A program made the position numbers and the translations under genes. Positions 1-51,669 of a stretch of DNA of 64,000 bases are shown here, piece by piece. Under the pieces are notes generated by a model that was given only the letters and a program-made list of their open reading frames with translations, was not told the DNA's origin and ran no database searches. The stretch comes from Selaginella tamariscina (lineage: Eukaryota > Streptophyta > Lycopodiopsida > Selaginellales > Selaginellaceae). The DNA is taken from positions 1 through 64,000 of the forward strand of contig PUQB01000408.1 in assembly GCA_003024785.1 (NCBI GenBank), given 5' to 3'. Each line of letters starts with the position of its first letter. Positions within the stretch are counted from its first letter, which is position 1.

Positions 1-1905
1 ATACAAGAAGCATGACAAGCGTATGCACAAGTTCCTCTCCATCATAGACCCAGACTTGGGGGAGGAGTGGTTCCAGAAGGTGACAAACATCTCTCATAAG
101 CAGTGTCGCTGGATGGGCATTGAGAAGCTGTATGCGATGTCAAGGGCGAAGATTCCAAACATGCTGCGACTCCGATACCTGAACAAGCTCACCCGTCTCG
201 AATCCAAGGCAGAACAACAGACACTTGGGCTACCGGGCATGCAGGACAAAGAGTGGATCAAGTGGTTCACCTTGGACTTATATTGGAAGGCTGTGCGCGA
301 GGAAGCCATTCAGATCCTTAAGGGGTTGCGAGAGGATGGTGAAGAAGTTGGAACGGATGTCGACTTCATGAGCTGGTTTGACGAGATGAGAATTCGGAGC
401 AAGTGCCTGGTCTTTCAGCCCTTCCATGACTGCATACGGTTCACTTATTCGATGGAGCCGAATGAGTTTCTGGAGCGTGAGGAATCTGCGCGTCGGATGA
501 TATGGAGGTAAGCTTTCAATCCAGCATTGCTACTGTCTGACTTTGTGTTGCAGGTTCATACTGGCGAAGCAAATGACACCGTCCCATACGATGAAGCTGT
601 GGACAGATCATACAAGCGAGCCTCACATGTGGTCGAAGAGCAGAGGAGCTCTAACACCGTTCGAACGGGAGCATGTTCCATTCTGGCTCGACTGTCCGTC
701 GCAACAGCCACCAGCTTGGGAGAGCACACTATTCGACATGCACGCCAATGATCTACCAGCGATTTTTGGGAGCCAGAAGAAGTAGAGGCTATCAAGAAGA
801 GCAAGATGAAGAAGACGGTGCGGAAGACAACTACACCTGCAAAGGGATCGGGAGCGGGACCAAGCTCTTCTACAGCACCTCCGCCGGCATTCGACTTTAC
901 AATCAATGAGGTACAGCCACTTGTAGCTAGTTTGGACATCAAGGACGACCTGATGACCTTCATCCCGACCCTGGCTGCATCCCGTGGATCCTACGACCTA
1001 GCTGTGTGCGACATGGAGGAGATGAGCAGGTCTTTCTTCGAGCCAGGTGCTTCCCAGACAGAGGTGTACACCAAGCTCCGAGAACAGGTTGACAGACTAC
1101 ATACGGTTGAGTCACAAACGTTGTTCCAGGAAGTGGTAGGTGAATACGGCTTCAACCTCATCATCCTCGACTTGCCCAATGAGCTTGTATATGGAGGTGC
1201 TAGCATCAACAAGGACATTGTGCAGCTAGATCCGGTGAAGTTTGAGGAGGCCTTGCAGTTCAGTGGAATGCACTTGGCAGCGAGTGGTTTCATGGTCGTC
1301 TTCGCGAGTTCTCCTTCTGTTTCGGCGGTGATTCAGGCGGCTGCAGTAATCAACTTGGAGGTTGCAGGGACTTACAGCGTCTACCGTGCACGAGGCTGGG
1401 GATACCGTGACAAAATTAAGGTAAGCTAGCTATTCAAGTTCAAGTTTAACTTGGTCTATGTGGCAGGATAACTTGTTAGTTCTCTTGGTGCTGCAAAGCT
1501 CTGAGAAGAAGTCGAAGAGGCCAAACCCTCTGGCGTTGACGAACACGATCCTCGTCGACACTGCCGACCGTTATCAGGAGGCTTGGTAAGGAAGTGCTTT
1601 GCTATGTTTATCCTAATGGAAGATTGTGCAGGATTATGATTCAACCGAAGAGTGTTCGACTCATGCAGCTTTTGATCGAGCGTCTCAGTAGACCTGGCGA
1701 CCTAGTCTGGATATTGGTTCCGGAACGGGTCATCATTGTTAGCTGCCGTCGAGCTCGAAGGAATATTATAGGAACCGAGAAGAGTTTCGAACTCTCTAGG
1801 TGGCAACAAACAAGCTTGCAGAGAACATTAGACCAGAAGAGTTACCTACTCAAAACCTCCACGTCCAAGCGTAACTGGTGGTTCGAGAACTGCAGCTTTA
1901 CTTAA
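1..1905 (+). CDS. beta-class (permuted) amino-methyltransferase-like protein, 5' end outside window
   Basis: Probably the C-terminal part of an N4/N6-type amino-methyltransferase (PF01555-like fold); the substrate cannot be told. Exons read to 507, then 554-1420, 1467-1585 and 1632-1905; all three introns are exactly 46 bases, with GTAAG donors and CAG acceptors. Exons 1-2 give a Trp-rich region I do not recognise, then a basic linker. Exon 2 has a motif IV-like strand, FNLIILDLPNE, where active enzymes have (D/N)PP(Y/F/W), followed by a hydrophobic strand (GFMVVFASS). Exon 4 has VRLMQLLIERLSRPGDL, then LDIGSGTG and SLLAAVELEG in shifted frames, then IIGTEKSFELS; this is the motif X-I order of the permuted class. 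Odd points: a one-base frame change at the T-run near 765, and three one-base losses between about 1705 and 1770 that together restore the frame. The catalytic motif is unusual, so activity is doubtful. The family is fairly sure, the function is not. Confidence 0.62.
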
Positions 1906-8892: not shown

Positions 8893-9228
8893 TTTGAATT
8901 AATCCCACTGGTCTTACGCAAGCGGGAGAAATCGACTCGGTGGGATTAATCCTGCTGTCTTGAGGCAGGCAAGAATGAGTAAGCGAGATTAATTCCACCT
9001 GGCCTGAGGCGGGTAAATGAGATTAATCCTGCCCAATACACTTAAAAGAGAAGAAATTGTAAAGGAATGTGTATATTTAACCAGATTAATCCTGCTGACT
9101 CATTCTTGCCCTCCTCATGACCAGGAGAGATTAATCCCACTGGCCTTAGGTGAGGAGGAATCGACTTCGCAGGATTAATCCTGCTGTCTTGAGACAAGCA
9201 AGAATCAAGTCGCCAGGATTAATCCTGT
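8893..9228. repeat. dispersed cluster of GGATTAATCC-type palindromes
   Basis: About nine copies of (G)GATTAATCC or one-base variants, each followed by CTGCTG/CCACTGG-like words and AGGC(A/G)GG pieces, spaced about 35-45 bases. The core is the same as in the large GC-rich array at 39395-40795, but here it is more diverged and less GC-rich. Confidence 0.65.
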
Positions 9229-29560: not shown

Positions 29561-29586
29561 AGATTAGGGTTTATTGATCTGCAGAT

Positions 29587-31190
29587 ATGGGTTTCCCAGC
29601 GGCGAGCGTTCTGGTGAACCGGCGAGTGGATCTTGTGGCTGCAGGGGGCGAGCGCCTTGCGCTGGTCGCACATCTCCGCGAGGAGCTGGAAGCGGCAAGA
29701 AATGGTTCGGATCGTTCCGCAGAAGCAGAAGCTGAAATCAAGTACTTGAAAGCGGTAGAGGAGGCCCGTGAGGTGCTGTTCGACAGAAATGAGGAGGTGA
29801 CAAAGCTGATCAAGCTATTGTGCATGGATCCAATCTCGCCCATCCTCGTCCTCGGCCCCAAGGACACAGGTAAGAGCATGGTGCTGAAGCATGTCCAAGC
29901 GCTCTGTGAGAATCTGGTTCCCGTTTCCTCTTGGACCTGAGGGCGTCAGAGTTCCTCACACCCGACGCATTCGCAGCAGAGATGAAGGCGCGCCTTACTG
30001 GCTGGCTTGACGTTGTTTTCGAGCTCATGGGGAGTCTGCAAGCCGAAGGTGTCAAAGGGGAACACCTTTTTCGGAAGTATGATAGCGGAAGTGCGAACGA
30101 AGGTGTCACCTAAGAAGGCTTATGATGTATTCCGTAAGGCAGTGGAGAGAGCTTCCGGCCTGTCGCAGGTGATTTCTTGCTTCTCTAAGTTCCTGGTCGA
30201 GGACCCGACTGTAGGCGCGGTGCTCATAATTGACGAGACCGACTGCCTCAAGAGCTGGGAGAAAGACTTCTCGACAGACCTCAAGGGCTACTCGAGTTCT
30301 TCACATGGCTACGAAGCAGCAGCGGCGCGCTCGCGTTATTCTTTTGTCGTCAGACGATTTCTTCCGGTCTTGGCTTCATGATCAAGCAACGCTCCAGTAC
30401 CGTATCGTCGGCGTGGGAAACTTTGACGAAGCTGCGGCTAAGGAGTTCTTTGCCAACTACTGTTTCTTCGGGATCAGTCCCCAAGAACCTTGGGAGGACA
30501 AATGGAGCGACATATTTTCAGCTACTGGTACGCTTTGTTTAGTTTAGCTCCTGATTGATTGATGGCTGACTTATTTCAGGTGGATCTCCAAGCCAGCTGA
30601 GGCTGGTTGCTCAGCTGGCTTGTGATATGCCGTGGAAACAGCAGTACTGTCGCTGGTCATCGATGCTGTCAACATTGGTGGAGAACACTGTCTCCAAGTT
30701 TTCGAGCGAGGATCGGGTGGAGATACTGAAAGCTATGAGCTTGTGGTGCAGAAGAATGGATTCGTGTACAAGAATGAATGGAGAAGACGGTGCGGAGGGA
30801 TGTGGTGCTGAAGATGGTGGAGGACAACATATTTCACCTGCGCTACTGCACACCTGCGGTGGCATACTCGGATGTCGATCCTGGTGAGCTGTATGGCAAT
30901 TACATCATGCCTTTCAGGCCTCCGTATTTGGAAGCAATGAGGCGATTTGTAAAAGCCAACGAGGGATGAGAGGCAGCTTTGTTGTACCCGCCCAAACTGT
31001 TCCAGATTTTTTGGAGGAAAAGCTTACAGGTAGGAAAGACACACACATACACACACACACCACGCTACGCACGCACGCACGCACAAGACACAGCTTCACA
31101 CGTATTGATTTGCAGAAAGTCCACTTCCGTCTTCAGTTGATATCCAGCCTTTTCTGCAGGAGCACAGTCCTCTGGCCGGTCTTGTATTCA
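29587..31190 (+). pseudogene. P-loop ATPase-like gene, frames broken
   Basis: A GC-rich island starting with a good ATG at 29587. Order of parts: an alpha-helical N terminus with AAREVLFDRNEEVTKLIKLL-like wording, Walker A GPKDTGKSM near 29850-29880, a helical middle (SPKKAYDVFRKAVERASGL), Walker B VGAVLIIDETD near 30211-30243, then FFRSWLHDQATLQYRIVGVG and, after a small intron near 30530-30580, QLRLVAQLACDMPW. Later frames give VLKMVEDNIFHLRY and FRPPYLEAMRRFVKANEG. The layout recalls AAA/STAND-like ATPases, including the ATPase core of trypanosome RHS proteins, but that is weak. The reading frame changes near 29930, 30090-30110, 30290-30310 and 30740-30780. These may be consensus errors or true decay. 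The substrate is unknown. Confidence 0.55.
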
Positions 31191-31541
31191 TGTGTGTGTG
31201 TGTGTGAGAGAGAGGGAGAGAGAGTTTTGCAATTTAATAAAATAATAGTATTATAGAAACATTGGAGCGTGAGGCAGCAAAATGTTCGTCTACGTAGCAC
31301 GCGCACACGCGCACATACACTTAGCAAAATGTACCATGAGTAAGAAGGAATGTTGCAAAGCCCCAGAAACAGTGTGTTACAAGTAGAAGTGTCTTTTACT
31401 ATTCTGTTAAGGAATAACACAGAATCCCAGACATAAACATCAGCTTTCTTTGGGGAGTCACAAGCATACAGTATGAAATAAAATAATACATTATGAAATA
31501 AAATACTTATAAGCTTCACCTTGTGGCTTTAACGTTAATTT

Positions 31542-31840
31542 TTAACTAACTCTAGACAGAACCTGATGTACAATTGCAGTACCAGCCTTCATGCCATCCA
31601 CAGCTGCACTGACAATGCCACCTGCATAACCGGCTCCTTCACCGATGGGATACAATCCCCTCATTGATGTACTCTCAAAAGTATCTGGATTTCTCACTGG
31701 AGTTTCATTTTAGCATATGTAAGTATGCATACATACCTGTGGTCTGTATGGTTGTGTGTGTGTGATATAGAGAACCATTTGTCAGTACCTCCACCCCATG
31801 GAGAAGTGCACGGTTTGTCGATGAATCAGGCATCTGTTCA
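31542..31840 (-). CDS. last exons of a PDE327-like FAD-dependent oxidoreductase
   Basis: The minus strand encodes PVRNPDTFESTSMRGLYPIG, EGAGYAGGIVSAAVDGMKAG, TAIVHQVLSRVS and TAA at 31542-31544. This is the characteristic C-terminal FAD-binding block of the plant FAD/NAD(P)-binding oxidoreductases related to Arabidopsis PDE327 (plastid-linked) and their bacterial relatives. A further exon at about 31839-31792 encodes NRALLHGVE before a GTACTG donor, which also fits the family order, although the join phase is not clean. The rest of the roughly 600-residue protein is not seen upstream, so either very long introns or truncation. Confidence 0.65.
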
Positions 31841-31849
31841 TTATTCAAT

Positions 31850-32274
31850 TATTTCTGGAGCATTTATTTATTAACTATTTTTCTAGAAAATTCTTTAATG
31901 TATAATTTTCAAAACTATATGGGCTAAACTAATTAATAATAATGCTAGAGTGCTATTTATATCATGTAGTTAATAAAATATATAATATATGCCATTAATA
32001 CTGGAAAGTCGTTTACAGTAGTGATGGCTCCAGTGGGACGATTATGTAATACTGCAATGATAATTAATTAATAAATACTCAAAATCAAGGAAAAACATAT
32101 ACCAAATCTTGTATACGTATGAAATACATTAATTTTGATAAAATCATTAAAATAATTAACTTAATTAAGTATGATTAATGGAGGGAACTTAAAAAATTTC
32201 ATAATAGAGACATGTATATAACATATGTGTGTATTCATATACGTGTATGTCATCCGACATACTTGGATTGTTCA

Positions 32275-32305
<31 letters not shown>

Positions 32306-34500
32306 GCACTCACGTCCTTTGGCAAGTACCACGTACACACATAGACATACACAGACTTGTGTTTACACTATACACACTCACACACGCACGCATATAGAAA
32401 TATGTTGATAATAAGAAATGTGCGCGTGTGTGTCTACATTTCTATTTATCTATCTATCTATCTATGTGGGTGTACATACTTGTGTCTAGTAACAAAAGCG
32501 ATGTGGGTATGTATATATATTTATGATTGGGATAATTAATATAATTTGATCATTATATATGTTAATGTTATGGTAATCCTGTACAATAATGTGTATATGT
32601 GTATACATATGTGTGCCCCTCGCATGACATGCAAATCAAACTACGAAGTGTTAATAAATTTTCTCATTTTGCCTAATAGAATTTAGATATAATTAGTATA
32701 TACAAATGTGATTTTAAACACAATTTGGGCTGTATATATTTAGAATATACTATATTATTATCACTGTATAAATTTGATAACTTTTTACATTGTGTATATT
32801 ATTTCAAATATTCAAAGATAAATATCTCAAATTTATAATTGAAAATATAGTCAAAATTATTAATTTATATCATGACTGTGAGACAAATGTCTGTAACAAT
32901 ATTTAATTAATTATTGTAGAACTTTCTTAATTTTACCATCTTTAGGGCCACCTAGTACTTTGCTAGATGTTTTTAAACTTTCTCAAACATTAGTTTATAG
33001 AATATTCTTGTTTTTTCAAGTATTTTAAAAACACTCCTGTACTATAGAACTTAATTAATTAATTTATAAATTATATTTACATAGTTACAGTGGTTCAGGC
33101 GTATGCTGAACCACAATGGTCTCATTATGAAGCGGCCATTGTATTATTGTAGTATGTTGCAATAAATATGGGACTTAATTTTTTTGTTATTGAAGCTAGT
33201 ATTGTGGTGAATTTGTTTTTTAAAATTAATAAGCAGTTAAGTAAAGAATTCTAAATATAATTATCTTGTTTACCTTATAGTTTTAATTTTATTTAAAACA
33301 TATCTAAAGTCACTATTTTATGAACCTAATACACTTGTGTAACTTCTTATTCTCATGTCACTTTGAAGGTCACCTTCTAATCCATTGCTCATTGTCGTCC
33401 ACAAATTTTATTGATAAACTAGTTAAAACTTATACTACATTTGTATTATACATATTCCAAGCCTTTACCATGTCTATAAAAACCTGATTGGTATCTTAGC
33501 AAAAACTAAGTGCACATTATAATTTATAACTTTCTTATAATACATGTGTGTACTCATGTCTAGTTGCACTACTCCATAATAGTCTTTAACATTTCCCTCA
33601 CATTGTTTTTGATAACACTAATCAAGTCTGTATATATTTGCCCAATTTATTACGTTTACATATGTTCTTATTATTTAAACTAACGCAATTAATTGCTTAC
33701 CTAATCCTTTATTCTTCTTTTTTTTATGTTGTCCCTCTCCCTTATGTTTTATTTTTTTATGCGTTAAACACTTACTTATTATTAGAGTAATAATATCCTT
33801 TAACTTTGGAGTCACATGTATCACAAACAATGTAATCCAACTAGCATAAATAATTATCAACTTCATAAAATGTCAATCCTTTAGCCTATATGTTCCAAAT
33901 CCAAGGTCTTTTATCATGATGTCAAAGTGACATAATTTCTTAGTTAACATTTTTCATAATCACATATTATGAAAAAATAATCAATTCAATACCTTAATCC
34001 AAAGAAATTTGTGCTTTTTAAAATTTATGTGTTGAGCTACATTTTAAAATTCATTATCTAGTAGTACTTGAACTTAAGTAGTATTACACAAATGAATTTT
34101 GAAACTTAAGTTACAATGTTAAATTTTCTTCAATTAGTACCACTTAAGTTCAAGTGATATAAATTAAAGAAAATGTGACACTATAGCATAGTAAAATATT
34201 ATGTAATTTAATTGAAATAGTATAAACGCACGTTGTAACTAAAGTAGGCATGATACGTGAAAATGGGAATATAAAATAAATTACTAATTAATACTTAAGT
34301 TTTAATTATTAATTAATCATTTAATTAATATGTAATTAAGCCTTAAATATTAATTAATTAATTAATTAATCCTTCAATAACCTTACTTAGTAAGGAATAT
34401 TCCTAAAATATCTTAGAATATTCATATTATTCTAAAAATAGTTTACAATAATGAAGAAATACTATCAAACATAATTACAAATGAAATCATTTTCTTATCA
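31850..34500. other. AT-rich DNA with a CT/CA tract, no gene seen
   Basis: CT/CA tract at 32273-32308, (ATCT)n near 32448-32464, otherwise AT-rich. A short piece at 31990-32060 is of balanced composition but cannot be assigned. Could be introns of the FAD oxidoreductase gene. Confidence 0.5.
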
Positions 34501-34513
34501 ACATGTTAATTTT

Positions 34514-35889
34514 TTATAAATACTTTCTTCCTATCATACAAGAAATCTTCTTCATTTTGTCTAAATCATCACTCTCCGGATTAATCAAATCATTTTGGTC
34601 AATATCTTGATGTTGTTGCCACCACTTAACACTCTCACGAATGCAATTGGGAGTTGCCATCCTTGTTAATACATAAGATGTGATAAGAGAAGGTCTGCAT
34701 AAAGGCTCATCTAAAAACTGACGTTCCTTAAGAATAATATTATAAAGCGCCCGGTTGCTATCCTTCATTTTATAAAATTCAAATCACGAGAAAGAAAAGC
34801 TTCAGGAAATGTATGATACGGTGGATACTGCTCACAAAAATTTTCGAGATTCTTCTTTCTGAGGCACGTATCCAAGTAGTTCACTAGCTCATCCATGATA
34901 TCGGTATCAGAATATGGATCGAAAGTGATTGGATGAATACAAGCAATGTTTTGGTTGAGCATAGCCTTCTGAGGAGAGTCGTCTACACTAACATCTGTGC
35001 GTTCTTCATTATCCTTAAGCGACTGATCTCCCCATGAGTCCCAATTATTCTTTCATTCTTGAAGAAGTATGGCTTGCTTTCCTTTCTTATATTGTGAAAT
35101 TCGAGAGGTTTATAACATATTCGCTGGTCAAAAATCCAATCTTTACGAATCACCTCTTCTGCAACACTACAATGTTTCTTAAGCAAATTCAACAGCGGTG
35201 TTAAGTTATGAATCTGCATGCATGACCAAATCCCCACAAGCGCACCCATCTCCTTAAGCTTTTGAAAGAGACGATCCAACCCTGGACGAAAAATAATATC
35301 ATATCGAAATTTACCATGACAAGGAATGAAATCTCCTTGTTTGATTTCTTTTTTCCTATCCTCGGGCCTTTGTCGATGAAGCAGAACACCATTGACATCC
35401 AACAACACAATATGGCCATGAGTAACATGAGATAGCGTTGCCTCTTGAATACTTTGCAAATCACTTGTTTGCTCCCTTTCACATTTATCCGTTGCCACTA
35501 TCTCGTTGCCTATCCCTTCATCATTTAATTGTACATCATCCTTACAAGATTCAGATATTGCATGCGCTGAAGAAATTGATTTCGGAACTGAAGCCAATAA
35601 AAATGATGATGAAAAAACTGAAGTGGCCCCCATGGTAACGATGTTTTGAGCTGCATTATTATCCATTTCCTGCATGAACTCTGTCATTCTGACATGTGGC
35701 ACAAGAAATTGTCGCCAAACCCCTCTCTTACCTCATGCCAATGCTGAAAATCCATGTTCTCAATTGTTTCATTACATCTGCAAAATGATAATTAGCTGAC
35801 CTTAAAATTATCAAGGTATATTATTTACCTTGTTAATGTGTGACCCATGTTTGAACTAAAAGCTTCATTAATCCTTGAGAATTTATTTT
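34514..35889 (-). CDS. FCP1/NIF-type HAD phosphatase domain, possibly the C-terminal part of the ParB-methyltransferase gene
   Basis: FCP1/SCP-like proteins are Asp-based phosphatases, several of which act on RNA polymerase II tails. Exon 35889-35829 and exon 35777-onward encode an N-terminal linker, then HIVLLDVNGVLLHRQRPED (plant-type DxNG variant of the DxDx(T/V) loop), KFRYDIIFRPGLDRLFQKL, GALVGIWSCM, and after one frame change near 35050, WDSWGDQSL and VDDSPQKAMLNQNIACIHP, the third motif. It continues to LVNYLDTCLRKKN and, after another frame change or a stop near 34767, a tail ending at 34514. The second Asp of the first loop is replaced by Asn, so catalysis is uncertain. The first exon begins at an acceptor only about 68 bases from the neighbour's stop and joins it in frame when a GTAATA donor at 35991 is used; see the fusion finding. 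Confidence 0.68.
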
Positions 35890-35956
35890 CTGTACAAATA
35901 TAAACGAAATATACAAAAATGCCTTATGTTACACTCATTTACAACTATTCGTCACT

Positions 35957-38900
35957 CTAACAATTCATTAACAATTCTTCTTCGCTATTACCTTCTGAGT
36001 GAGGCGAAGAAGGTCTAAGCCGCTTGTGAGATGGTTCAAGATCTTCTGCATCTTCTATTGATGTTTCCATGGGTAATGGAGTGTGCGAATGTTCTGTACT
36101 CCTCGAGATAACTTCCGGTCTAATATCTGATTGAAGTTCGTCCTCAGACTCCGACATTGAACCAGATTCGTCTTCAGAGCTATCGCACTTATCTGGAGGG
36201 AACTTTCTCAAATACTCCTTTATGGATTCGTTGGGGTATCAGTTGAGAACCTATCTATCCACTTGTTCAGGTCCTCAACCATGGTCTTATCCTTTTCAAC
36301 GGCAAATACACATGTATGCCGAAGGTAACACTCCTTCAAGACGGACCCCCTAGTGCAGTAGTCAAAAACCCACGCATCACTGTGAGGACCCCTGATCAAG
36401 TTGACGATGCTCCGTGCCGCTTGACTTGTGATGTTTGGATAACGTACATTGCCGAATACGTCACTCTCCTATCGGTGTATCGGATGGAGGTTCAGGGCCG
36501 TTGGAGTGCAAACAGATGCCTGGCCAGTCATTTGGAAGTTTGAAACTGTTTGGCGCATTCCTAACAACCAAGTGAACAACGAATCAATGCACTTCGGATC
36601 AGCATCATTCATATAAAATCCTGTCCAACGATGTTTATTCCTCTTGGCAAAGGAGAAGGCAAAGGTATCGGTGACATGAGCAAGAATCAAGAAATAAATA
36701 CCTGAAAAGTAGATATCAGTCAAGAGTGCAAGTATGAATTCAATAATAAATACCTTCTTTGTACATGCTTGCACGGCTAAGTTTCTCCACCAAATCCTCT
36801 AGTGTCCTGTCTGTCGAAGGATTTTTTGACACCCGCCGATCCATCACGAACAATTGAAACGGTTTCCTACAAGCAGTGATGGTACCCCATAAAGTCTCCG
36901 AATCCAACAACAAACATCTGTAGGGCTTGTCGTGATTCGTAGCATCCTCCTTTATAAGGTTCAACTCGGTTCTCCGCTGCTGAAGGACTGCCATAAGAGA
37001 AGGCGTCATCGCAATGTTCTCCTTTTGGCGTTGGCGTGCAATAGATTCTTGCCCAGATCTTCCGATTGATTCACCCATTCGACAAGCATATCATCGTTTG
37101 TCACATGCAAATATTTGCTGACCTCTTCGTATGTTGAAGCCGAAATCCAACCCAGTTTGTGGCAGTGTATTCCCAACCACTCCTTGAAGTGCCTGACCGT
37201 CTTCAACTCCATTGCCTTGAGATGAAAAGGAGAGGTGGGCTGCTGTTGTTAATCTGTAATTTGCCATCAATCACCAAATCAGCCAAGACTTCCATCTCCT
37301 CCATCGTTGTTCCATTTAAAGGCTTCAACCATGTGAGCTTGAAATCGTTGTCTACATCCTTTATAGATTGAACAGACTTAGACTTCGGCGTCTTACTGGG
37401 TTTCTTTGCAGACTTCTCTGAGGGCTCCACTTCACTTGTCTGCTTCTTCTTCAGTGTTCCTTTTGCAAAGGATTCCATAATCCCCAACCATTTCGCAAAG
37501 ATCCTATCCTCGGGACAAGAAATCAACATCATCAAAAGGATGTTTCCTTCCCGCCCACCTGGGCAAAATCAACTGCTACAATTTCTTCAACTCTCTGAGG
37601 AAAAGACAGATTAATATACCGGCGAGATAAATCCCGCCCAAACAATTTGCTTACCCGGTATTCCGCAGATTGTGTATTCCCTGCGGTAGCTCTTTGTGGT
37701 CGCTGAAGAGATTCCCACACGGCTCGCGTGTGTTTGAACTTCTCCCATATTTTGCTGTTGTAGTGGTTGGTGTCTGCAGCGTCCCATTCGCCGATAACTT
37801 ATGGTACTGCTCGATTGTGAGATTCGGCTTCGCTAAAAACGCCGATCTTTTCGTCAGCTTCTCACGGGTATGCTCGGAAAGTTTTGTTGCCATCGTTCCT
37901 TTGTTGTGTTCGTCGAGAAGTCGTTGGGCTGCCGTTATTGTGTGCTGGCCACTAATGATGTAGTACTTAACTGATTTTCTATTCTCCGTCTGAACCTTCC
38001 TCATTTGTTCGGTGTTGTGATCCACACTTTGTCAGCGCCTTTGTGTCTTTCGTAGTATGCGCACAAAACAGCATTATGTGGAACGGTGTAAGAATTGTCG
38101 TCCTTCATCTTCTCCATGAGCTCAGCTACACGTTCCTGATTCAGTGGCCTGTAATTGAAGTTTGGGTTGACGCTGCAATACTTAACCCTACACTGGTAAA
38201 TCCTATCATCCAACATCATTTCCTTGTGGCTTATTGCAGCATGGGACGCCACAGGTGCAGCTGACAAAACGACTAATGATTTTCTTCTACGATCCGAATC
38301 AACATGTGTGATCCCCGATTGATGCTGTTCTAATGTTCCGGCACACTCTTCCAGCTCCCGAAATTTGCTAAGCAAATTGAACGTGATCTGTAAAGAACCT
38401 GAGACCAAGCCACCCTCTCAATCTCCTTTATGATGTCGCAGTGTTCTTCTTCAATGTGAAGAGGGACGATTGCTCCACTTGCTGATTTTCTGTATTGTGA
38501 AGCAATATCTCCTGACAATACACCTACTCGATGAGTCTGAAGATCTTCGAAGTAGACATCCAGATGGATCCCCTCCATAGATGGGCTTTCGTTGAGTTGA
38601 AGAAGAACTCCAAGGTCAACATCATTAGTGAACACGTGAACGTCATTATCCACAAGTCGACAAAACCACCCGAAATTAATGTTGTAACTGGACCTCTGGA
38701 TCCGAGAACGTGACATTGGATGGAACGAGGCATATGTGTCGAGCATCGTTCAATCTGGGTTCACAGCATGCTTTCGGATGCTTGACTAGCACACCCACTT
38801 TCCATTGTTTTGCTTGTCCATGCGATGTGACAGAGGTTAGTTTGACAGCAACCATGGTTGTTCCAATGCGCTTCCCGTTTAGTTTGAAATATGGCCAAGT

Positions 38901-39096
38901 TGATTCCAGAATCCCCCTGCCCATCTCTTCTCCTGCTCTCGTCTTTAATGTTACCTCAATTCCACATCTGAATACAAAAATGATTAGTTCAAGCACATAT
39001 CCGAGTATAACAGATTTTATTTTAATTCTTACCCAGAATTTGACGACGACTCCATACTAATGACTCGATCTCCTTGTTTAATTAAATCGTCCTTCT
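35957..39096 (-). CDS. ParB-like domain plus amino-methyltransferase-like domain protein
   Basis: Minus strand. An exon 39096-39033 (acceptor TTGCAG; encodes KDDLIKQGDRVIS) joins in frame to exon 38967-36754; exon 36701-35957 follows after a 52-base intron. Order of parts: an unrecognised N terminus (GRGILESTWPYFKLNGKRIG); NYRPLNQERVAELMEKMKDD near 38150-38090 and VKYYIISGQHTITAAQRLL near 37970-37910, the ParB/Srx-fold layout with the GGQHR-like motif as SGQHT; a charged linker (KKPSKTPKSKSVQS); CLLLDSETLWG near 36915-36885, where a DPPW motif IV would be; DWPGICLHSN; NVRYPNITSQAARSIVNLI; and VFDYCTRGSVLKECYL plus FAVEKDKTMVEDL near 36380-36280, which fits motif I and the acidic SAM strand of beta-class methylases. 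A Ser/Glu-rich tail ends at 35957. About eight to ten one-base frame changes separate these pieces. The domain calls are inference from motifs. Confidence 0.6.
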
Positions 39097-39196
39097 GCAA
39101 AATAATACACTATGAATACAAATCATATAAAAACGCACACAACTTGTATAAACCCGAATATACAAAAATAATACACAGAGAGAAGTAGACGGAATT

Positions 39197-39283
39197 AACT
39201 GTCCAAAGCTCACCTTTGTGCTAGTTCAAAGGAAAGATAACATTTCGTTTTAGAACCACCACAAATGTGAGCTCTGGACAGTT
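39197..39283. other. long imperfect hairpin, miRNA-precursor-like
   Basis: A left arm of about 36 bases from 39197 pairs with a right arm ending at 39283, with about five mismatches and a short loop; best-kept core is ACTGTCC...AGCTCAC...TTTGTG. Size and pairing resemble a plant pre-miRNA or a small foldback element. It lies upstream of the first exon found for the ParB gene, so it could also be in that gene's 5' region. Confidence 0.4.
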
Positions 39284-39394
39284 TTACATAGTTTCCTAGC
39301 TTTTACTCGAAATATTATGATAAGATGATAAAAGTAAATAAAATGAGATATGCAACTTATATATACTAATACACATATATTTCACATGGAAGGT

Positions 39395-40795
39395 GCGGCG
39401 GGATTAATCTCGCCACCCCTTCAATGCCTCCTGAAAGAGTGGGCGGGATTAATCTCGCCACCTTTCTGGAGGCCTTGAACGGGAGTGCGGAATTAATCTT
39501 GCCACCCTTCTCGGTCTCAGAGAGAACTGGGCAGGATTTATTTGGCACACCCCTTCAGTGACTCCAGAAAGGAGGCGGGATTAATCTCGCCCACCATGTA
39601 AGGGATGGTTAAATGAATTTCCCCACCCTTCCCATTCTCTCCATTGGTATGTTGTAAACCTTCTACGTCTCAGACAGAAACGTTTGGGATTGGTGACTCA
39701 CCAATGGAGAAAAAGGAAGGGTGGCGGGATTCATTCCTCCAACAGGCATTGAAGGCTCGGCGGGATTAATTGCCGCCCAGGGCCTTCACTCGGTCCCTAT
39801 GCGGCGGGATTAATCCCGCCGGACGCCAATTCCTGCTCGAAATCGGCGGGATTAATCCCGCCGCCTAGGCCCTTTAGGCAGTCCTTTGGGCGGGATTAAT
39901 CCGCCGATTCGCGCAGGGCTGGGATTAATCCCGCCGTGTACGCATGCCTGCGCGGAATCGGGCGGGATTAATCCACGGATTCCGCGCAGGGCTGCGGGAT
40001 TAATTCTGCCGCCTAGGCACTTCAGGTAGGCCAATGGCGGCGGGATAAATCCCGCCCGATTCCGTGCAGGGCATGCGTACGCGGCGGGATTAATCCCGCC
40101 GCCCAGGCCCTTCACTCGGGCCTTAGTCGGCGGGATTAATCCCGCTGGACGCCAATGCCTGTGCAGAATCCGGCGGGATTAATCCGCCCGATTCCGCGCA
40201 GGGCATGCGTACACGGCGGGATTAATCATGCCGCTCATGAGGGTAACGAATGAGCGGCGAGATTAATCCCGCCGGACGCCAATGCCCTGTGCAGAATCCG
40301 GCGGGATTAATCCCGCCGCCTAGGCCCTTCAGGCAGGCCAATGGCGGCGGGATAAATCCCGCCCGATTCCGCACAGGGCATGCGTACGCGGCGGGATTAA
40401 TCATGCCGCTCATGAGGGTAACGAATGAGCGGCGAGATTAATCCCGCCGGACGCCAATGCCCTGTGCGGAATCCGGCGGGATTAATCTCGCCGCCTAGGC
40501 CCTTCAGGCAGGCCAATGGCGGCGGGATAAATCCCGCCCGATTCCGCGCAAGGCATGCGTACGCGCGGGATTAATCATGCCGCTCATGAGGGTAACGAAT
40601 GAGCGGCGAGATTAATCCCGCCGGACGCCAATGCCCTGTGCGGAATCTGGCGGGATTAATCCCGCCGCCTAGGCCCTTCAGGCAGGCCGCGGCAGGATAA
40701 ATCCGCCCGATTCCGCGCAGGGCATGCGTACGCGGCGGGATTAATCCCACCGCCGAGTGGCTAATTATATAGCGGCAGGATTAATCCCGCCGCTA
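39395..40795. repeat. GC-rich satellite of 18-base palindromes
   Basis: About 28-30 copies of GGCGGGATTAATCCCGCC or near variants, spaced 35-60 bases. The exact unit is its own reverse complement. In the right part they are ordered in a higher-order unit of 174-175 bases: GAGCGGCGAGATTAATC recurs at about 40252, 40427 and 40601. Linkers are also shared and partly palindromic (GCATGCGTACGCG, GCCGCTCATGAGGGTAACGA, CCTAGGCCCTTCAGGCAGG). GC content is far above the flanks. Left copies (39395-39600) are more diverged. Open frames on both strands are by-products. Function unknown. Confidence 0.85.
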
Positions 40796-41084
40796 CACAC
40801 ACACACACACAGATATATACAGATACTGGTACACATAATATATGTATGTATACATAGGTATATATATATATATATATATGTGTATATGTATATCGTGTGT
40901 ATGCGTGTGTGAAACAAATAAAATCATACAGATAAACAAACACACACACACACATATATATACAGGAGTGTGCGTGTGTGCGAGAGATACAATTAACAAA
41001 TCAATAAAATTATACAGATACACACACACACATAATATATATAGATAAATAAATAGAATTATATATATATATATATATATTATA

Positions 41085-41130
<46 letters not shown>

Positions 41131-41155
41131 ATATAATATATCTGTGTGTATATAT
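40796..41155. repeat. CA and AT microsatellite block
   Basis: (CA)n tracts, then long (AT)n runs (41068-41140) that are largely self-complementary and could extrude cruciforms. Confidence 0.7.
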
Positions 41156-41814
41156 ATGAATATCATATATAAATGATTATTTAATGCATAGTATTCATTT
41201 AGATTATATAAAATATTTTATTTATTGTACAAGTATATTTGGTATTTAAATTATATCTTTAATTATATTAAATAACTGATTTTATTTTTCTTTTCTTTGT
41301 AAAATTCTATTTCAATTGGGAACACATTCTTCATTGGCTATAATAAACTATAAATATATTTAATATCAAAAACATATATTTAAAAGCAACATATAGTGTA
41401 GAATATATTTATTTTACATCATGTAAATATGCAGTGTAGCTATGCACACATTAGTGGTGTACAATGTAAGCATATGTATTCACCATTTTAACCATATATA
41501 TGTATGTATATTCTTATGTATGCAATGTATGTATTTTGTATTATATAAATATACACATGATTTATTTCTATATGTGTGTCATACATTTATATACATATAA
41601 TATGTTTTTTTTTATGTATATATTTAGAATTATTATCTATATTTATTCAATGTTAAAAATTATAATATAATATGAATTTAAAATTATTTAAGTAAGTTAT
41701 TTAAATGAATCAAATAATATTTTAATTCAACAGCATTGTTTTTTTTTAAAAGGATCTTACAAATTTTTAGTTGGTCATGATTGAATTTTAAAAAAATTTG
41801 TTCATTATAGTGAT
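41156..41814. other. AT-rich DNA, no gene seen
   Basis: No coding frame, RNA gene or mobile-element end is supported here. Confidence 0.55.
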
Positions 41815-42270
41815 TATATATACTCATAATATTAAACATGTATAACAAATGATATATATACATGAGTAATTCTTATATTACACAATATTATTATTATCTC
41901 ATTATTACCTTATTACTATTATTTAATATGTATGCATTGTTATATAATAAACTTCGTAATGGTTTCTCACTTTTTTTGAAAATTCTTGTTGTCACTGCAA
42001 TATTATTAATAATTATAACGATTAAATAAATAAATAATTATTTTATTATTATTAGACATGATTAACATCATTATTCAACTTCATGAAATGCGGTGCGAAA
42101 ATAAAACATAAATGTTAAATATATAATTTTAATTTATTTAATATGTTATTACATTTAAATTTAAATTCATCTTATTAATATTTATGAATAATATAAACAT
42201 ATAAAGAAAACACATTATAAATATAGAATACATTTGAGTGAATTATATATTTACATTATATAATATAAAC
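41815..42270. repeat. dispersed AT-rich repeat, copy 2
   Basis: Collinear with 11140-11640 over nearly the whole length, in the same orientation, with many small changes. Confidence 0.6.
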
Positions 42271-42296
42271 TATACAACACATAGTTTCATAATTTT

Positions 42297-42372
42297 TATA
42301 ACGAAGTTAGTACATCGATATTTTGTGTTTTTTTTATAACGAAGTTAGTATATCGATTTTTGTGTTTTTTTT
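42297..42372. repeat. tandem duplication, 37-39 base unit
   Basis: Two copies of TATAACGAAGTTAGTA(C/T)ATCGAT followed by TTTTGTGTTTTTTTT. Confidence 0.7.
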
Positions 42373-42390
42373 ATTAAGTTGGTTAACAAA

Positions 42391-43326
42391 AGATAACCCT
42401 AAGAATCTGACTCTGGGCGCCATTAGGCAAAAGACTTAGAGTCCTACCCTAAGTCCCTTAGAATAACCATCCCCTGAACCCTAGAGGATATCCTGAGTAA
42501 ACTTTAGAATTCTATCCTAGTAGACCTAGACAGACTCATGCCCTAACCCTACAAAGAAGATGTGTCTCACACATACCCCCGTGATAGAGCTAAGGCATCG
42601 TCATTTACCCCTTGAAGAATCACCCTCATCTGGGAGTACAACCCCTTTAGGGCAACAAGGGGTACCTTGAACCACGACTAACCCCTAAGAGTTTGGGTGG
42701 CTAGTACTTAGTGCGAACACGAGTGTGTGCCATAGGCGAACACGAGTGTTCTACTAAGCAAACTCCCTAAGGCTAGGTTTAGAAAACCTTAAGTACATGA
42801 CCTTGCGAGTGCTTCACGAAAAGGCTCCTGCTAACAAGCTTAGGTTGTTCAACCCCTGGATTCCAAGGAGAACACCCCTAGCCAAGTGTGCCTAAGCATA
42901 CCTAGTTACGAGACCTAACCTCCCTTAAGCAAATGCCCAAGGCTTAGCACCCTAGCGCGAGCACAAGCATGCCTGTTTGTTAGAGTATCCAACCCCTTGG
43001 CGACAAGCCCATGACATAACCCCAAAGGGCATGCCTCGGACATTGTATCATGTGACGTTTAGCCCAGTGTCACATCTCCATGTGACACTGCCTTCCCCAA
43101 TGTGGGCTATCATGCCATATCCCTTAGATTCAAGAGTTGCACCAAGTACCACAAATGTGGCTCATAAATGCCAACTCTATAACCCCTTAAGTGAACCCTT
43201 AGGAATTGGGTAATGTGAACCTGTCAAACAAGATTCCACGCCCACAGTTGGACAAGGACAAGAGTGTGCCTTGCTTGGCCATGAGTGCTACACCTAGCTT
43301 GATGTGGAGGAGGAGGTTGGAGACAA
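42391..43326 (-). mobile_element. partial LTR of the 1.69-kb family
   Basis: On the minus strand this matches the 3' half of the full LTRs (compare 14390-15330). It is followed at 43327 by gag-like sequence on the same strand. Old, incomplete copy. Confidence 0.75.
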
Positions 43327-46191: not shown

Positions 46192-49100
46192 ATTGAATGT
46201 CTCCATGCACCCCATATGTCCCATGGAGTATATGTATGCAATAGTAGTAGCATCACCCCCAGTCACACCCAACACGATGTCAATTCCTGTTCATGTTCCT
46301 ATAGATGGTCCAGCTCCCATGGAATGTAAAGCAACTCAAGCAAGACGCCATGGACCCTTGACCGAAGTAGAGAAGCATCGTCGTAGGACCAATGGTTTGT
46401 TCTTTAATGTGATGGTCCAAGTCATATTGCAATAAGCTACCCCAACAAACCCAAGCATATGATCAATCATGTCCACTCCCAGAGTCCCAAGTGTGTGATC
46501 AACCATGTTCGACCCCAAAGTCCCAAGCCCTTGAGTAGGAGTAACAGTTTTGAGGTCCTTAGTGAGTTGGACAAGTAGTTAAACAAGTAAGTCCAGTCAA
46601 AGTCGGAGCCGTTTGGCTGGACAATCCCAAACATCGAGAATCTTTACACATAGTTGGCTTCATCCCATCATCTCAAGTCAGTAAGTCCTTTGCAACACAT
46701 GCCTAGCTTTCCATTGCAACAGGCCACAAGGTAACTGCTCCGACTTTGTTGGATTTTAGTTTTAGTCTCAGTTGTCATAGTTTTTACTATGACTCCCCTT
46801 TACTTTGGATGTTGAATGTTATTACCTACTGTACTATGTTGATAAGCTCTAGATGTAGTAGGAAACATGCCCACTTAGTGCACTTGGGTATTTGGTGATG
46901 GTCTGGCCGGGTGTTATTAGGTATTTGCAAAAAACTTTAAGTGAAGTTAGAACTTACCTTCTAAAAAACTCTTACCCTAGTTTTCCATGTCCTGGTTGGG
47001 TTAATGGTTAGTTCCGGTGAGTTTGGCATGTCAGATATGCTTAGAAATACCCCTAGGTTTGATAGGTTAGGGTTTAGGGGTCGATGGATAACTCACCAAG
47101 TATATTCCCTCTGAGAATGAGATTCCGTGCCAGCCCACTTATGTAAACAAGAAAACAAGGGGGGAGGGGGGACCTCTATCACATAAATAAGGTAGTATAT
47201 AGGAGTGAGGGTTCTTGGGTTCATGACTGAGCTCGTTACTCTTCTCCAGGTGCAAGCTCTAGCTTGTGTCGTTAATGCACAACCCTTTGTTATGTCGCTC
47301 TAACTTCCAAATGATAGGGGTAAGTCTCACCTTCAGGGTAGCTTACCCTTAACGTTGGCGAATCCATGCCTGGGAGGTCTTGTCGGGATGCACGTTCTAA
47401 AAGGCAGAGGTTGAGGCTTGTCTCCAGCCTCCTCCTCCACGTCAAGCTAGGTGTAGCACTCATGGCCAAGCAAGGCACATTCATGTCCTTGTCCAACCAT
47501 GGGCGTGGGATCTTGTTTGACGGGTTCACATTACCCAATTCCTGAGGGTTCACTAAGGGGTTCTAGAGTTGGCATTTAGAAGCCATGTTTGTGGCACTTG
47601 GTGCAACTCTTGAATTTAAGGGCTATGGCATGATAGCCCACATCGGGGAAGGCAGTGTTAAATGGAGATGTGATATTGGGCTAAACGTCACATGGTACAA
47701 TGCCCAAGGCACACCCTTTGGGGTTATGTTATGGGCTTGTTGCCAAGGGGTTGGATACTCTGACAAACAGGCATGCTTATGCTCGCGCTAGGGTGCTAAG
47801 CCTTGGGCATTTGCTCAAGGGAGGTTAGGTCTCGTAACTAAGTGTGCTTAGGCACAGTGTCCTCCTTGGAATCCAAGGGTTGAACAACCTAAGCTTGTTA
47901 GCAGGAGCCTTTTTGTGAAACACTCGCAAGGTCATATACTTAGGGTTTTCCAAACCTAGCCTTAGGGAGTTTGCTTAGTAGAACACTCGAGTCTGCCTAC
48001 GGCACACACTCGTGTCCTCACTAAGTATTAGCTCTAGGTCTAGGGTATAACTTGGCCACTCAAACCCTTAGGGTTAGTCATGTTTCAGGGTACCCCTTGT
48101 CGCCCTAAAGGAGTTGTACTTCCGAATGAGGGTGATTCCTTAAGATGTAAGTGACAATGCCTTAGCTCTGTCATGGGGGTATGTGTGAGACACATCTTTT
48201 TTGTGAGGTTAGGGCATGAGCCTGTCTAGGTCTACTGGGACAAGATCCTAAAGTCTATTTGGGTTATCTTCTCGAGTTTAGGGGATGGTCATTCTAGGGA
48301 CTTAAGGTAGAACTCTAAGTCTTTTGCCTAATTGGGCCTATGAGTCAAACTCTTAGGGTTATCTTGGAAGACTTAGCGTTGCTCACATAGGGTGATGACG
48401 CCAAATGGCCACTTGGCAGCCACATGTTACCACGTGTTGGCCCTTTGGGTTAAAACTCTGACATCAGTCGTGGATTCTAGACCTGTAGTATCTAGTGCAA
48501 TTGTCAAGGAATCTGAGCCAGTACAGGTCACATTAGGAGAAACCTTATGCTTCAACATAATTTATAGTCCTGAGTACCCAGTTATTCTTGACACACCATG
48601 GTTCGAGTTACACAACCCATGCATCGATTAGCACAAGCGACGTTTCAACTTACCAAAGAAGGTGCAAGATCCTGAGTTTTCGATATTAGACTCTCAACCA
48701 TTTGTGGATATGCATGATTTTTTTGGATGAGTTCATTCAAGAGAGTAAGCAAGATCCATTGTTAGTTTTTACAATTGTGATCAACCCAGCTTCCGAGTTT
48801 GCTCCCTACCAAGTATAATGATTTTGCTGATGTTTTTGATAAGGTTTGGGTTAGTAAGCTTTCAGAACATTGACCTTATGACTATCCTATCAATCTTATT
48901 AAAGGAGCCTAACCTCTTTGGGGACCCATTTATGGTCTTTCCCCGGCAGAGCTCGAAGCCCTTCAGAAGTACATTAAGGAAAACCTTTTCATTGGGTTTA
49001 TCCGACATTTTACGTCTCTAATTGGTGCACTGATCTTTTTTATTAAAAAGAAAGATGGATCATTGCGTTTGGTGGTGGATTATCACGGCCTCAATAAGGT

Positions 49101-49964
49101 CACCATTCATAATAGGTACCCTCTACCATTGATATTTAATTTGTTAGAGCGACTCGTTAGAACTAAGTACTTCACCAATATCGACTTGCGAGGTGCTTAC
49201 AACTTAGTTAGGATTCGCTTAGGAGATGAGTGGAAGACTGCATTTCATACATGATATGGGCATTTTGAGTATACAGTGATGCCATTTGGTCTTAGTAATG
49301 TACCAACTGCTTTTTAACACATGGCCAACAACATCTTTCATGAGAGTTTGGACATGTTTGTCATTATTTATCTTGATGATATTTTGATTTACTTGAAGAC
49401 TTTGGAGGAGCATGAGAGTCATGTTTGATAGGTTTTGTAGAAGCTATAGGATCATGGCCTTTATGCAAAACTCGAGAAGTGCAGTTTTGAGCATGATCAT
49501 GTGGAGTTTCTAGGCTATATGGTATCATCTGAAGGAGTGGTTATGAACCCTGTTAAGGTAAAAATAGTGTTGGCACCACGATCAGTTTGCAATGTGCAAT
49601 GTTTTCTTAGCTTTACCAATTTCTACCACAAATTCATTAAGGACTACTCCAAAATTGTATTATCACTTACTAAGTTGACCTAAAAGGATAAGTCCTTTGA
49701 GTGGAATCTGGAAGTAGGCTTTCACATCTGCTCCAATCCTAGCACATCCAAACTTGGAGAAGCCCTTCATCATTGAAGCTGATGCATCGATTTTACATAG
49801 TAGTATACTTTTTCAGGTTGATGATGATGGTCAACTTCATTTAGTTGCTTTTCATTCCCGTAAGTTCCTACTACCAAAGATCAACTATGAGGTACACAAT
49901 AAAAAGTTGCTAGCTATTGTGGATTTATTTGAGGAATGGAAACATTTCTTAGAAGAATCACCAT
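46192..49964 (+). mobile_element. Ty3/gypsy internal region, fossil, interrupted by a solo LTR
   Basis: Parts in order: end of gag with the pre-zinc-knuckle wording RRHGPLTEVEKHRRR near 46340-46390; a solo LTR (46773-48463); a protease-side region with FNIIYSPEYPVILDTPWFEL near 48550-48610; reverse transcriptase with [20 protein letters not shown] near 49057-49120, [11 protein letters not shown] and the YLDDILI box near 49370-49390, FLGYMVSS; and RNase H with KPFIIEADASI and LHLVAFHSRK. Integrase and a proper 3' end are missing; it stops at the LTR at 49965. Broken, with perhaps ten or more breaks; old. Confidence 0.8.
46773..48463 (+). mobile_element. solo LTR (1691 bases) inside the Ty3/gypsy fossil
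   Basis: Begins TGTCATAG, ends TCTGACA, with a perfect 5-base duplication TCAGT at 46768-46772 and 48464-48468. It is the same family as 13718-15411 and nearly the same length. It was inserted into the gag-protease part of the older element. Confidence 0.87.
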
Positions 49965-51669
49965 TATTAGAGTTTTAACCCGAAGGGCCAACACATGGCA
50001 ACACGTGGCCGCCAAGTAGCCTTCTAGCGTCAATTCCTATGTGAACAACACTAAGTCTTCCAAGATGACCCCAAGAGTTTGACTTAGATGCCTAGTTAAA
50101 TAGAAGACTTAAAGTTCTGCACTAAGTCCCCTAGAATGACCATCCCTCGAACCCTAAAGGATAACTTTAGGATCCTATCCCAGTAAACCTAGACAGGCTC
50201 ATGCCTTAACCCCACAAATGAGATGTGTCTCACACATACCCCCATGACAGAGCCAAGGCATTGTCACTTACCCCCTTGAGGAATCACCCTCATTCGGAAG
50301 TACAACCCCTTTAGGGCGACAGGGGGTACCCTGAACCACGACTAACCCTAAGGGTTTGAGTGGCCAAGTTATACCCTAGACCTAGAGCTAGTACTTAGTG
50401 AGGACACGAGTGTGTGCCGTAGGCGGACTCGAGTGTTCTGCTAAGCAAACTCCTTAAGGCTAAGTTTGGATAACCCTAAGTACATGACCTTGCGAGTGCT
50501 TCACGAAAAGAGCTCCTACTAACAGGCTTAGGTTGTTCAACCCTTGGATTCCAATGAGAACATTCCCCTAGCCAAGTGTGCCAAAGCACACCTAGTTACG
50601 AGACCTAACCTCCCTTGAGGCGATGCCTAAGGTTTAGCACCCTAGTGCGAGCACAAACATGTATCTTTGCTAGAGTATCCAACCCCTTGGTGACAAGCCC
50701 ATGACACAACCCCGAAGGGCGTGCCTTAGGTGTTGTATCGTGTGACGTCTAATCCAGTTTCATATCTCCATGTGACACTACCTTCCATGATGTGGGCTAT
50801 CATGCCATAACCCTTAAATTCAAGAGTTGCACCAAATACCACAAACGTGGCTCCTAAATGCCAACTCTAGAACCCCTTAGTGAACCCTTAGGAACTAGGT
50901 AATGTGAACCTATCAAACAAGATCCCATGTCTACAGTTAGACAAGGACACGGATGTGCCTTGCTTGGCCATGAGTGCTACACCTAACTTGACGTGGAGGA
51001 GGAGGCTGGAGACAAGCCTCAACCTCTGCCTTTTGGAGTGTGCATTCCAGCAAGACCTTCTAGGCATGGATTTGCTAACGTTAAGGGTAAGCTACCCTGA
51101 AGGTGGGACGTACCCTTGTCATTTGAAAGTTAGGGCGGCACAATAACGATAAAAGCTATAAAGCTTGCACTGGCAAAAGAGCAAAGAACTCAATCATGAA
51201 CCCAAGAGCTCTCCTACTACATACTCTACCTTATTTATGTGACGGAGCCCCCCTTCCCCTCCCCCCTCTTTTCCTGTATGTGTAAGTGGGTTGGCATGGA
51301 ATGCCAGCCCCTTAGTTAATGAAATGAGTTTTGCACACTAACCCCTACCCCTAAACCCTACCCAAGGGGGTGGGGGTTTTAGGGTGTGGGTTAGGGCAAC
51401 ACTAGGGTTGGGTCAACCCTAGGGGTGTTCCTAACCCTATTTAACATGCCAAACTCATCTAACTGGGACGTCAAAATTAGAAAGTAAGTGCTACCTTTGC
51501 TTAAAGTTTCTCGCAATATTTAAGGACAGCCGGCGGACTACCCCTAAACACCTAAGTGCACTAAGCAGGGCTGTTTCTCACTACATCTAAGGTCTGTCAA
51601 CATAGTACAGTAGGTAATAACAATCAACCTCCAAAGTAAAAGGGTCGAGTCATAATAAAAACTATGACA
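49965..51669 (-). mobile_element. full-length LTR, minus orientation, with adjacent purine tract
   Basis: The reverse complement matches the 1.69-kb LTR family end to end. On the minus strand, the bases just upstream of its TGTCATAG start (51670-51683) are AAAGGCGAGGAGTG, a polypurine-tract-like run, preceded by an open stretch DVNEDIDIFKGEE. This suggests a 3' LTR with some internal sequence left, rather than a solo LTR. The outer flanks do not form a matching duplication. Confidence 0.72.

Follow-up and report, generated by a model that had tools for sequence, protein, structure and literature searches.

Does the minus strand of the window (the whole stretch of DNA analysed, 64 kb) between positions 39055 and 34514 encode one protein in which a ParB-like domain, an amino-methylase and an FCP1-type phosphatase domain follow each other? 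Such a protein was proposed in a sequence-only reading, and the six peptides quoted there are all found on the minus strand. Our results indicate that this region is a genuine eukaryotic coding tract. Specifically, 3.0 kb of it (38966–35960) can be crossed without stops by 11 frame switches as compared to 31.0 ± 3.8 in shuffled sequences, and none of 300 shuffles is as low. Intron 1 has an acceptor ranked 3 of 322 and a donor ranked 10 of 237. The tract is interrupted about 10 times by changes of frame, most of them losses of a single base, and the gene is therefore decayed or carries assembly errors. Because frame changes, which the sequence-only reading did not point out, cut the ParB-like, methylase-like and NIF blocks alike, splicing at 35991/35890 is not enough to open the frame throughout; that would take many more introns, often weak ones, or base corrections. 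A gene model free of frame changes, with 15 introns, was rejected: it still includes one stop (39057), treats intron 1 as coding and removes coding-looking stretches, including YYIISGQ of the ParB motif. No candidate out of 8000 scored reached E ≤ 1 in a protein search with the joined upstream tract, and three single ORFs of the target found no relative in viral contigs. Searches of PDB sequences returned nothing or just weak matches to unrelated chains, NCBIfam and PHROGs matched the blocks weakly to unrelated or unnamed families only, and Rfam gave zero matches at gathering level.

Table 1. Positions of the features discussed, in window coordinates.
Feature	Position	Strand	Basis or remark
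Array of ~30 copies of the 18-bp palindrome GGCGGGATTAATCCCGCC	39397..40791	.	23 of 29 spacings are 41–46 bp
Exon 1 (MESSSNSG; ATG at 39055) and intron 1 (39032-38968, 65 bp)	38968..39055	-	Three-frame translation
Frame-broken coding tract: N-terminal region without known family, ParB-like block, linker, methylase-like block, acidic tail	35957..38967	-	Minimum frame switches and frame path
ParB-like block, RIYQCRV...PLNQERVAELMEKMKDD...YYIISGQHTITAAQRLL	37915..38204	-	Own profile; frame change near 38024
Methylase-like block, FQLFVMDRR...AWVFDYCTRGSVLKECYL...VFAVEKDKTMVEDL	36259..36865	-	By eye only
Intron within methylase-like block	36753-36702	-	Frame changes cut the block too
Stop of upstream tract, TAG	35959-35957	-	
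Candidate linking intron, 102 bp, GTAATAGC...TTGTACAG	35890..35991	-	Splice-site ranks; contains the TAG stop
First exon of NIF half	35829..35889	-	In-frame ATG 35848; AATAAA 35887-35882
NIF/FCP1-like coding part	34514..35777	-	Pfam PF03031; frame losses near 35048 and 34782
Possible further intron in NIF part	35731-35670	-	Own reading; donor rank 1 of 237
Stop of NIF part	34516-34514	-	
Separate gene, possible beta-class amino-methylase C-terminus (RPGDLVW/DIGSGTG)	1..1872	+	Coding tract; frames joined by eye

Among the three claimed domains, the NIF/FCP1 part is the only one that the family searches confirm. PF03031 matches one unmodified ORF with 1.4e-08 and 35.1 bits, above the curated cut-off of 21.8, and the joined pieces with 1.1e-11 and 45.1 bits. 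The canonical catalytic motif of NIF/FCP1 domains is DxDx(T/V). The target shares with PF03031 phosphatase domains the profile match along the domain, VDDSPQKAML included, but it has D-V-N-G-V in place of the catalytic motif, as Asn replaces the second catalytic Asp in LLDVNGVLLH (35405-35376, minus strand), and it is preceded by a long N-terminal extension that matches no family. The putative intron 35731-35670 combines the top-scoring donor of the tract with an acceptor outside the 20 best. When the joined NIF part was used in a protein search, none of 2024 candidates appeared at E up to 1. In our best explanation this part would most likely act as a phosphopeptide binder or as a weakly active phosphatase-like domain.

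The ParB identity of the block at 37915–38204 is plausible but weak. The ParB N-terminal motif is hydrophobic-x-G-x-(H/R) ahead of AA..L, and YYIISGQHTITAAQRLL is present; when the joined block was shuffled, 30 of 2000 shuffles reached its score with our own ParB profile, which is suggestive. Taken separately, the two halves rank 8 and 10 among 707 ORFs (E 12 and 16). In hhalign the block is the best local match (P 0.18), and hmmsearch with the same family gives 0.14, but elsewhere and off the ParB motif. The curated collections give the label no match: PF02195 has zero matches in the target up to E 10, no ParB family in Pfam or NCBIfam matches, and no such chain is found in PDB. The best Pfam match of the block is the unrelated PH_BUD3_C (E 0.0043; 17.4 bits vs a cut-off of 27), and a phage tblastn with one ParB-half ORF gave no match.

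A methylase fold in the target gene is not supported by our tests. Our own methylase profile scores the block no better than chance (407 of 2000 shuffles are as high), PF01555 has no match in the target gene, and neither a methylase family in Pfam or NCBIfam nor a methylase chain in PDB was matched. Classic amino-methylase motifs are (D/N/S)PP(Y/F/W) and FxGxG. VMDRRV and VFDYCTRGSV occupy the corresponding places, and both classic motifs are missing in the frames read; should the frame changes prove to be errors of assembly, residues at the breaks may differ from those read. Variants named in the main text of PMC8885841 are SPPY, DPPY, NPPY and DPPW. The order claimed for the target, ParB and then amino-methylase, is like that of the ParB-N-terminal site-specific DNA methylases of phages and bacteria (e.g. 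UIS74605.1 of Morganella phage Mecenats66), and the short motif II.G.H...AA..L is common to both. Unlike these enzymes, the target lacks the catalytic and AdoMet motifs as read, and neither of its two parts gives a significant profile match.

The window holds another methylase candidate, a separate gene whose 5' end is truncated by the window edge (1–1872, plus strand). With joins made by hand its PF01555 score of 26.7 bits equals the cut-off, and with X at the joins it is 13.6 and 15.5 bits. None of 2000 shuffles scores as high with our own methylase profile, the joins having been picked by eye to suit the motif; the unjoined ORF 1540–1902 ranks 4 of 707 (E 1.4). Judged from these scores, and only with such eye-picked joins, the gene may carry an amino-methylase end. 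We make no paralogue claim for it and the target, since their local alignment is unconvincing: shuffles were as high in 271 of 500 cases for the C-terminal half, in 23 of 500 for the methylase parts (106 of 500 at lower gap cost) and in 522 of 2000 for the motif region.

The breaks themselves may have two origins. We put the chances at even that they are assembly errors within an intact gene, with no decay. In the target and NIF tracts combined there are 9 base losses, a single stop and 2 gains, one of which comes from an intron; four transposon tracts of 6.05 kb in all have 10 losses, 10 gains and 9 stops. Moreover, the gene at 1–1872 has four losses inside about 120 bases of otherwise preserved motif; these four are an eye reading only, because the coding model detects no shift in 1640–1872, which speaks against assembly errors. 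A uniform error process should also enrich losses in transposons, and no excess is seen there. Also against assembly errors, some of the breaks can be expressed as extra short introns.

In the one-gene reading the ParB-like, methylase-like and NIF parts would be joined into one spliced gene through the 35991/35890 intron. The sequence-only reading correctly placed both splice sites (donor 35991, acceptor 35890/35889), the intron length of 102 bases and the junctions 35829/35777, and the joins are in frame. The donor (6 of 237) and the acceptor (5 of 322) rank well, and the GC content of 0.28 is intron-like. From the upstream stop to the next in-frame ATG there are just 108 bases, which in a gene-poor, repeat-rich window would favour a single gene, and all four gene-model runs take the intron, though they were forced through to the NIF end. 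Several observations oppose this. The NIF part was said to have no start of its own, which is wrong: exon 35889-35829 contains an in-frame ATG at 35848 (MGHTLTR|CNETIENM). AATAAA at 35887 sits about 70 bases past the upstream stop (one occurs in 223 of 1544 similar AT-rich 100-bp windows). GC3 is 0.35 in the NIF half vs 0.50 in the upstream half, of which the last 91 codons also have 0.35. tblastn found no NIF near or behind the other candidate methylase gene, at 1–1872. Sites within coding sequence score equally, acceptor 35281 inside the NIF domain ranking first, and this copy has no continuous frame unless further introns or corrections are assumed. A fusion is thus possible on these sequence features, its chance falling slightly short of one half. 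The own ATG, the AATAAA, the GC3 gap and the lack of NIF behind the gene at 1–1872 would equally suit two neighbouring genes, of which the ParB-like/methylase-like one would stop at 35957 and the NIF one would begin at 35848. This arrangement fits about as well as the fusion and has, in our estimate, some two chances in five; it leaves the strong acceptor at 35889 without use, and about 110 bp would be a very short distance between unrelated genes in a sparse genome. The one-gene and two-gene readings are mutually exclusive, and either of them is compatible with assembly errors and with a mobile-element origin.

The palindrome array, which had not been reported in the sequence-only reading, lies about 340 bp upstream of the coding tract. 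One extra copy of GGCGGGATTAATCCCGCC (37621-37638) falls inside a candidate intron that separates the ParB-like block from the methylase-like one, and a decayed second array is at 8939-9212. A link to prokaryote sites was dropped: the palindrome occurs in 49 stretches of the genome_contigs set, of which 48 hold a single site and the other holds two, and in 1 stretch of viral contigs. The tract could be part of a mobile element, the array being its terminal or regulatory repeat. The adjoining array, the palindrome copy inside the gene and the second, decayed array are in line with this, but the 25 longest of 298 inverted-repeat pairs in 31500–42500 lie within the array or within adjacent AT/GT repeats, none of these 25 flanks the unit, and a tblastn search with the target gave no further copy within the 64-kb window. 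We regard this origin as unlikely, at about one chance in four. Far less probable, and quite speculative, is that ParB-like DNA binding, an amino-methylase fold that has lost catalysis and an FCP1-type domain of atypical kind are united in one eukaryotic protein, which would bind the array of palindromes spaced by about 43 bp upstream of its own gene, like plasmid ParB on centromere repeats, and would thereby couple DNA binding at specific sites to signalling through the RNA polymerase tail.

Our best explanation of the whole, held tentatively and at a little less than even confidence, is a gene-poor eukaryotic locus in which a NIF/FCP1-type domain lies downstream of a long frame-broken coding tract, both on one strand. 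The upstream protein would consist of an N-terminal region of no known family, a ParB-like fold, possibly a vestigial methylase fold, and an acidic tail with a basic patch. Most likely it would be a nuclear nucleic-acid binder with methylase activity absent.

What the sequence-only reading proposes, a bacterial-type amino-methylase that is joined to another domain in a eukaryote, is described in bdelloid rotifers: according to PMC8885841, whose main text does not contain the word ParB, N4CMT carries the SPPY motif, the PF01555 domain and a chromodomain. The target tract has no match to these. The three-domain ParB–methylase–NIF layout was not found among the matches listed from the open-licence literature; if the three parts are one protein, its layout would be absent from those matches. 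What is secure is the atypical NIF domain that ends a broken gene next to an unusual palindrome array. If true, the capture of a bacterial methylase architecture by a eukaryote would merit tracing.

The minus strand between 39055 and 34514 holds a real coding tract, made up of an upstream tract and a NIF/FCP1-like part (NIF part). In-frame stops are avoided with 11 frame switches in the upstream tract (38966–35960; 300 dinucleotide shuffles need 31.0 ± 3.8 and at least 22) and with 4 in the NIF part from 35777 to 34514 (15.9 ± 2.7 in dinucleotide shuffles, lowest 9); on the opposite strand the switches are at chance (28 vs 28.2 and 13 vs 14.6, respectively). With its GC content of 37%, short GT–AG introns, transposon-type matches and long dinucleotide repeats, the window looks eukaryotic. 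The transposon remnants, one of whose two reverse-transcriptase matches is under its cut-off, are taken for Gypsy-type and LINE-like elements (the element names are our own). An ATPase-like stretch at 29578–30560 (plus strand; PF01637, E 3.5e-05, under cut-off) is readable in several frames, and frame switches over 29578–30980 are not clearly under chance (9 vs 12.2 in shuffles, 29 of 300 as low).

Features of the window and their coordinates
Feature	Position	Strand	Content
Upstream tract	38967–35957	−	ParB-like block 38204–37915; methylase-like block 36865–36259; stop TAG 35959–35957
NIF part	35889–35829, 35777–34514	−	NIF/FCP1-like coding
Proposed linking intron	35991–35890	−	102 bases
GGCGGGATTAATCCCGCC copies, ≤3 mismatches	39397–40791; 37621–37638; 8939		26; 1; 1
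Decayed second array, ≤5 mismatches	8939–9212		6 copies
Second gene	1–1872	+	truncated at window edge; possible beta-class amino-methylase C-terminus; catalytic-site-like peptide LDLPN
Transposon remnants	48780–49980, 55744–58375, 60164–62640		reverse-transcriptase, gag and zinc-knuckle matches

By three-frame reading and a simple coding model, the upstream tract carries 1 stop, 7 single-base losses and 2 gains; the NIF part, counted from 35667, has 2 losses. The clear intron 36753–36702, unmasked in the coding-model run, accounts for one of the gains. Such near loss-only damage looks like read errors. Assembly error and decay are nevertheless both plausible: a uniform error process should affect transposons likewise, but the coding model finds 9 stops, 10 losses and 10 gains in four transposon tracts (6.05 kb) of the same window, our yardstick for frame damage. 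The coding tract can also be modelled with zero frame changes by allowing 15 short introns, but this model splices out coding-looking sequence and several of its splice sites are low in the weight-matrix ranking.

The NIF/FCP1 assignment of the sequence-only reading holds, with PF03031 matching at E 1.4e-08 on an unmodified ORF and 1.1e-11 with frame pieces joined. The motif reads LLDVNGVLL, and ordinary catalysis seems doubtful because Asn stands where the canonical motif has its second Asp. Donor 35731, the best-ranked of the whole tract by weight matrices, may mark one further NIF intron, read as 35731–35670. This acceptor choice abolishes the frame change there; the acceptor is outside the 20 best, and the 15-intron model chose 35731–35689 instead.

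The other two labels fared differently. A profile built from 29 aligned phage and metagenome proteins places the two halves of the ParB-like block 8th and 10th among 707 window ORFs (E 12 and 16), and against it 30 of 2000 shuffles score as high as the joined block. With a 123-protein alignment, hhalign places its best match in the 993-residue joined tract, YIISGQHTITAAQRL, on the ParB motif (P 0.18). By hmmsearch this family scores E 0.14 on the tract, with the best stretch at another place. In Pfam, PF02195 (ParB N-terminal) has no match in the block up to E 10, and the best match is PH_BUD3_C (E 0.0043, under cut-off). The ParB identity is thus suggestive only. As for the methylase, VFDYCTRGSVLKECYL...VFAVEKD resembles by eye a nucleotide-binding motif. 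We do not adopt this identity for the target gene: the block has no Pfam match, 407 of 2000 shuffles are as good, and both signature motifs are absent.

Does the linking intron join both parts into a single spliced protein? We give this slightly less than an even chance. Splice sites were ranked with weight matrices based on plant-like consensus values (237 GT and 322 AG sites in the tract). Donor 35991 ranks 6th and the acceptor before 35889 5th, as good as the tract's other introns (e.g. donors 37654, 35828, 39032 and 36753 rank 2, 4, 10 and 13). The two parts join in frame, GC in the intron is 28%, and in a window this sparse a spacing of only ~110 bp between unrelated genes would be unusual. 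However, equally high ranks occur within coding sequence, where acceptor 35281 of the NIF domain comes first, and the NIF part does not lack its own start as had been claimed, since exon 35889–35829 contains an in-frame ATG at 35848. AATAAA at 35887, ~70 bases past the stop, is weak evidence against fusion because 223 of 1544 similar AT-rich 100-bp windows contain one. GC3 differs between the upstream tract (0.50) and the NIF part (0.35), yet the final 91 upstream codons also have 0.35. No protein of this layout is among the literature matches listed (layout, ParB in eukaryotes or plants, eukaryotic amino-methylation, FCP1 fusions).

An array of the 18-bp palindrome GGCGGGATTAATCCCGCC begins ~340 bp upstream of the target ATG. 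With ≤3 mismatches the window has 28 copies vs none in 100 shuffles, the one at 37621–37638 sitting in a candidate intron of the target gene; with ≤5 mismatches, counted without shuffle control, the array has 30 near-identical copies, and 23 of 29 spacings are 41–46 bp. CpG is not depleted in it (observed/expected 1.1 vs 0.61 window-wide). SopB, a ParB protein, binds 43-bp repeats adjoining its gene on the F plasmid. This resemblance leads to the boldest reading, judged improbable, of a ParB-like protein that would bind repeats beside its own gene; against it, the target's ParB call is weak and tblastn found no target gene copy beside the second array. The target's 5′ flank also contains a strong hairpin at 39197–39283 with arms of ~31 bases (−48.1 kcal/mol, z −7.0; none of 200 shuffles reaches this stability). 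It has no Rfam hit at the gathering threshold and may represent either a short inverted-repeat transposon or something like a microRNA precursor.

By local alignment the second gene is not convincingly similar to the target, and its neighbourhood gave no NIF in a tblastn search with the target's NIF part. Its tract needs 4 frame switches vs 18.0 ± 2.7 in shuffles. With frame joins its end is readable as RPGDLVW/DIGSGTG/...AAVELEG/RNIIGTEKSF, although the coding model found no frame shift within 1640–1872. None of 2000 shuffles scores as high as the joined methylase part on our own profile, a test biased towards a match because the joins were picked by eye to fit the motif; the unjoined ORF 1540–1902 ranks 4 of 707 (E 1.4, same profile). 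PF01555 gives E 6.2e-06 with error-containing hand joins; once the joins are corrected and written as X, E is 0.067 and 0.018. The second gene nevertheless makes the better case in the window for a eukaryotic beta-class amino-methylase.
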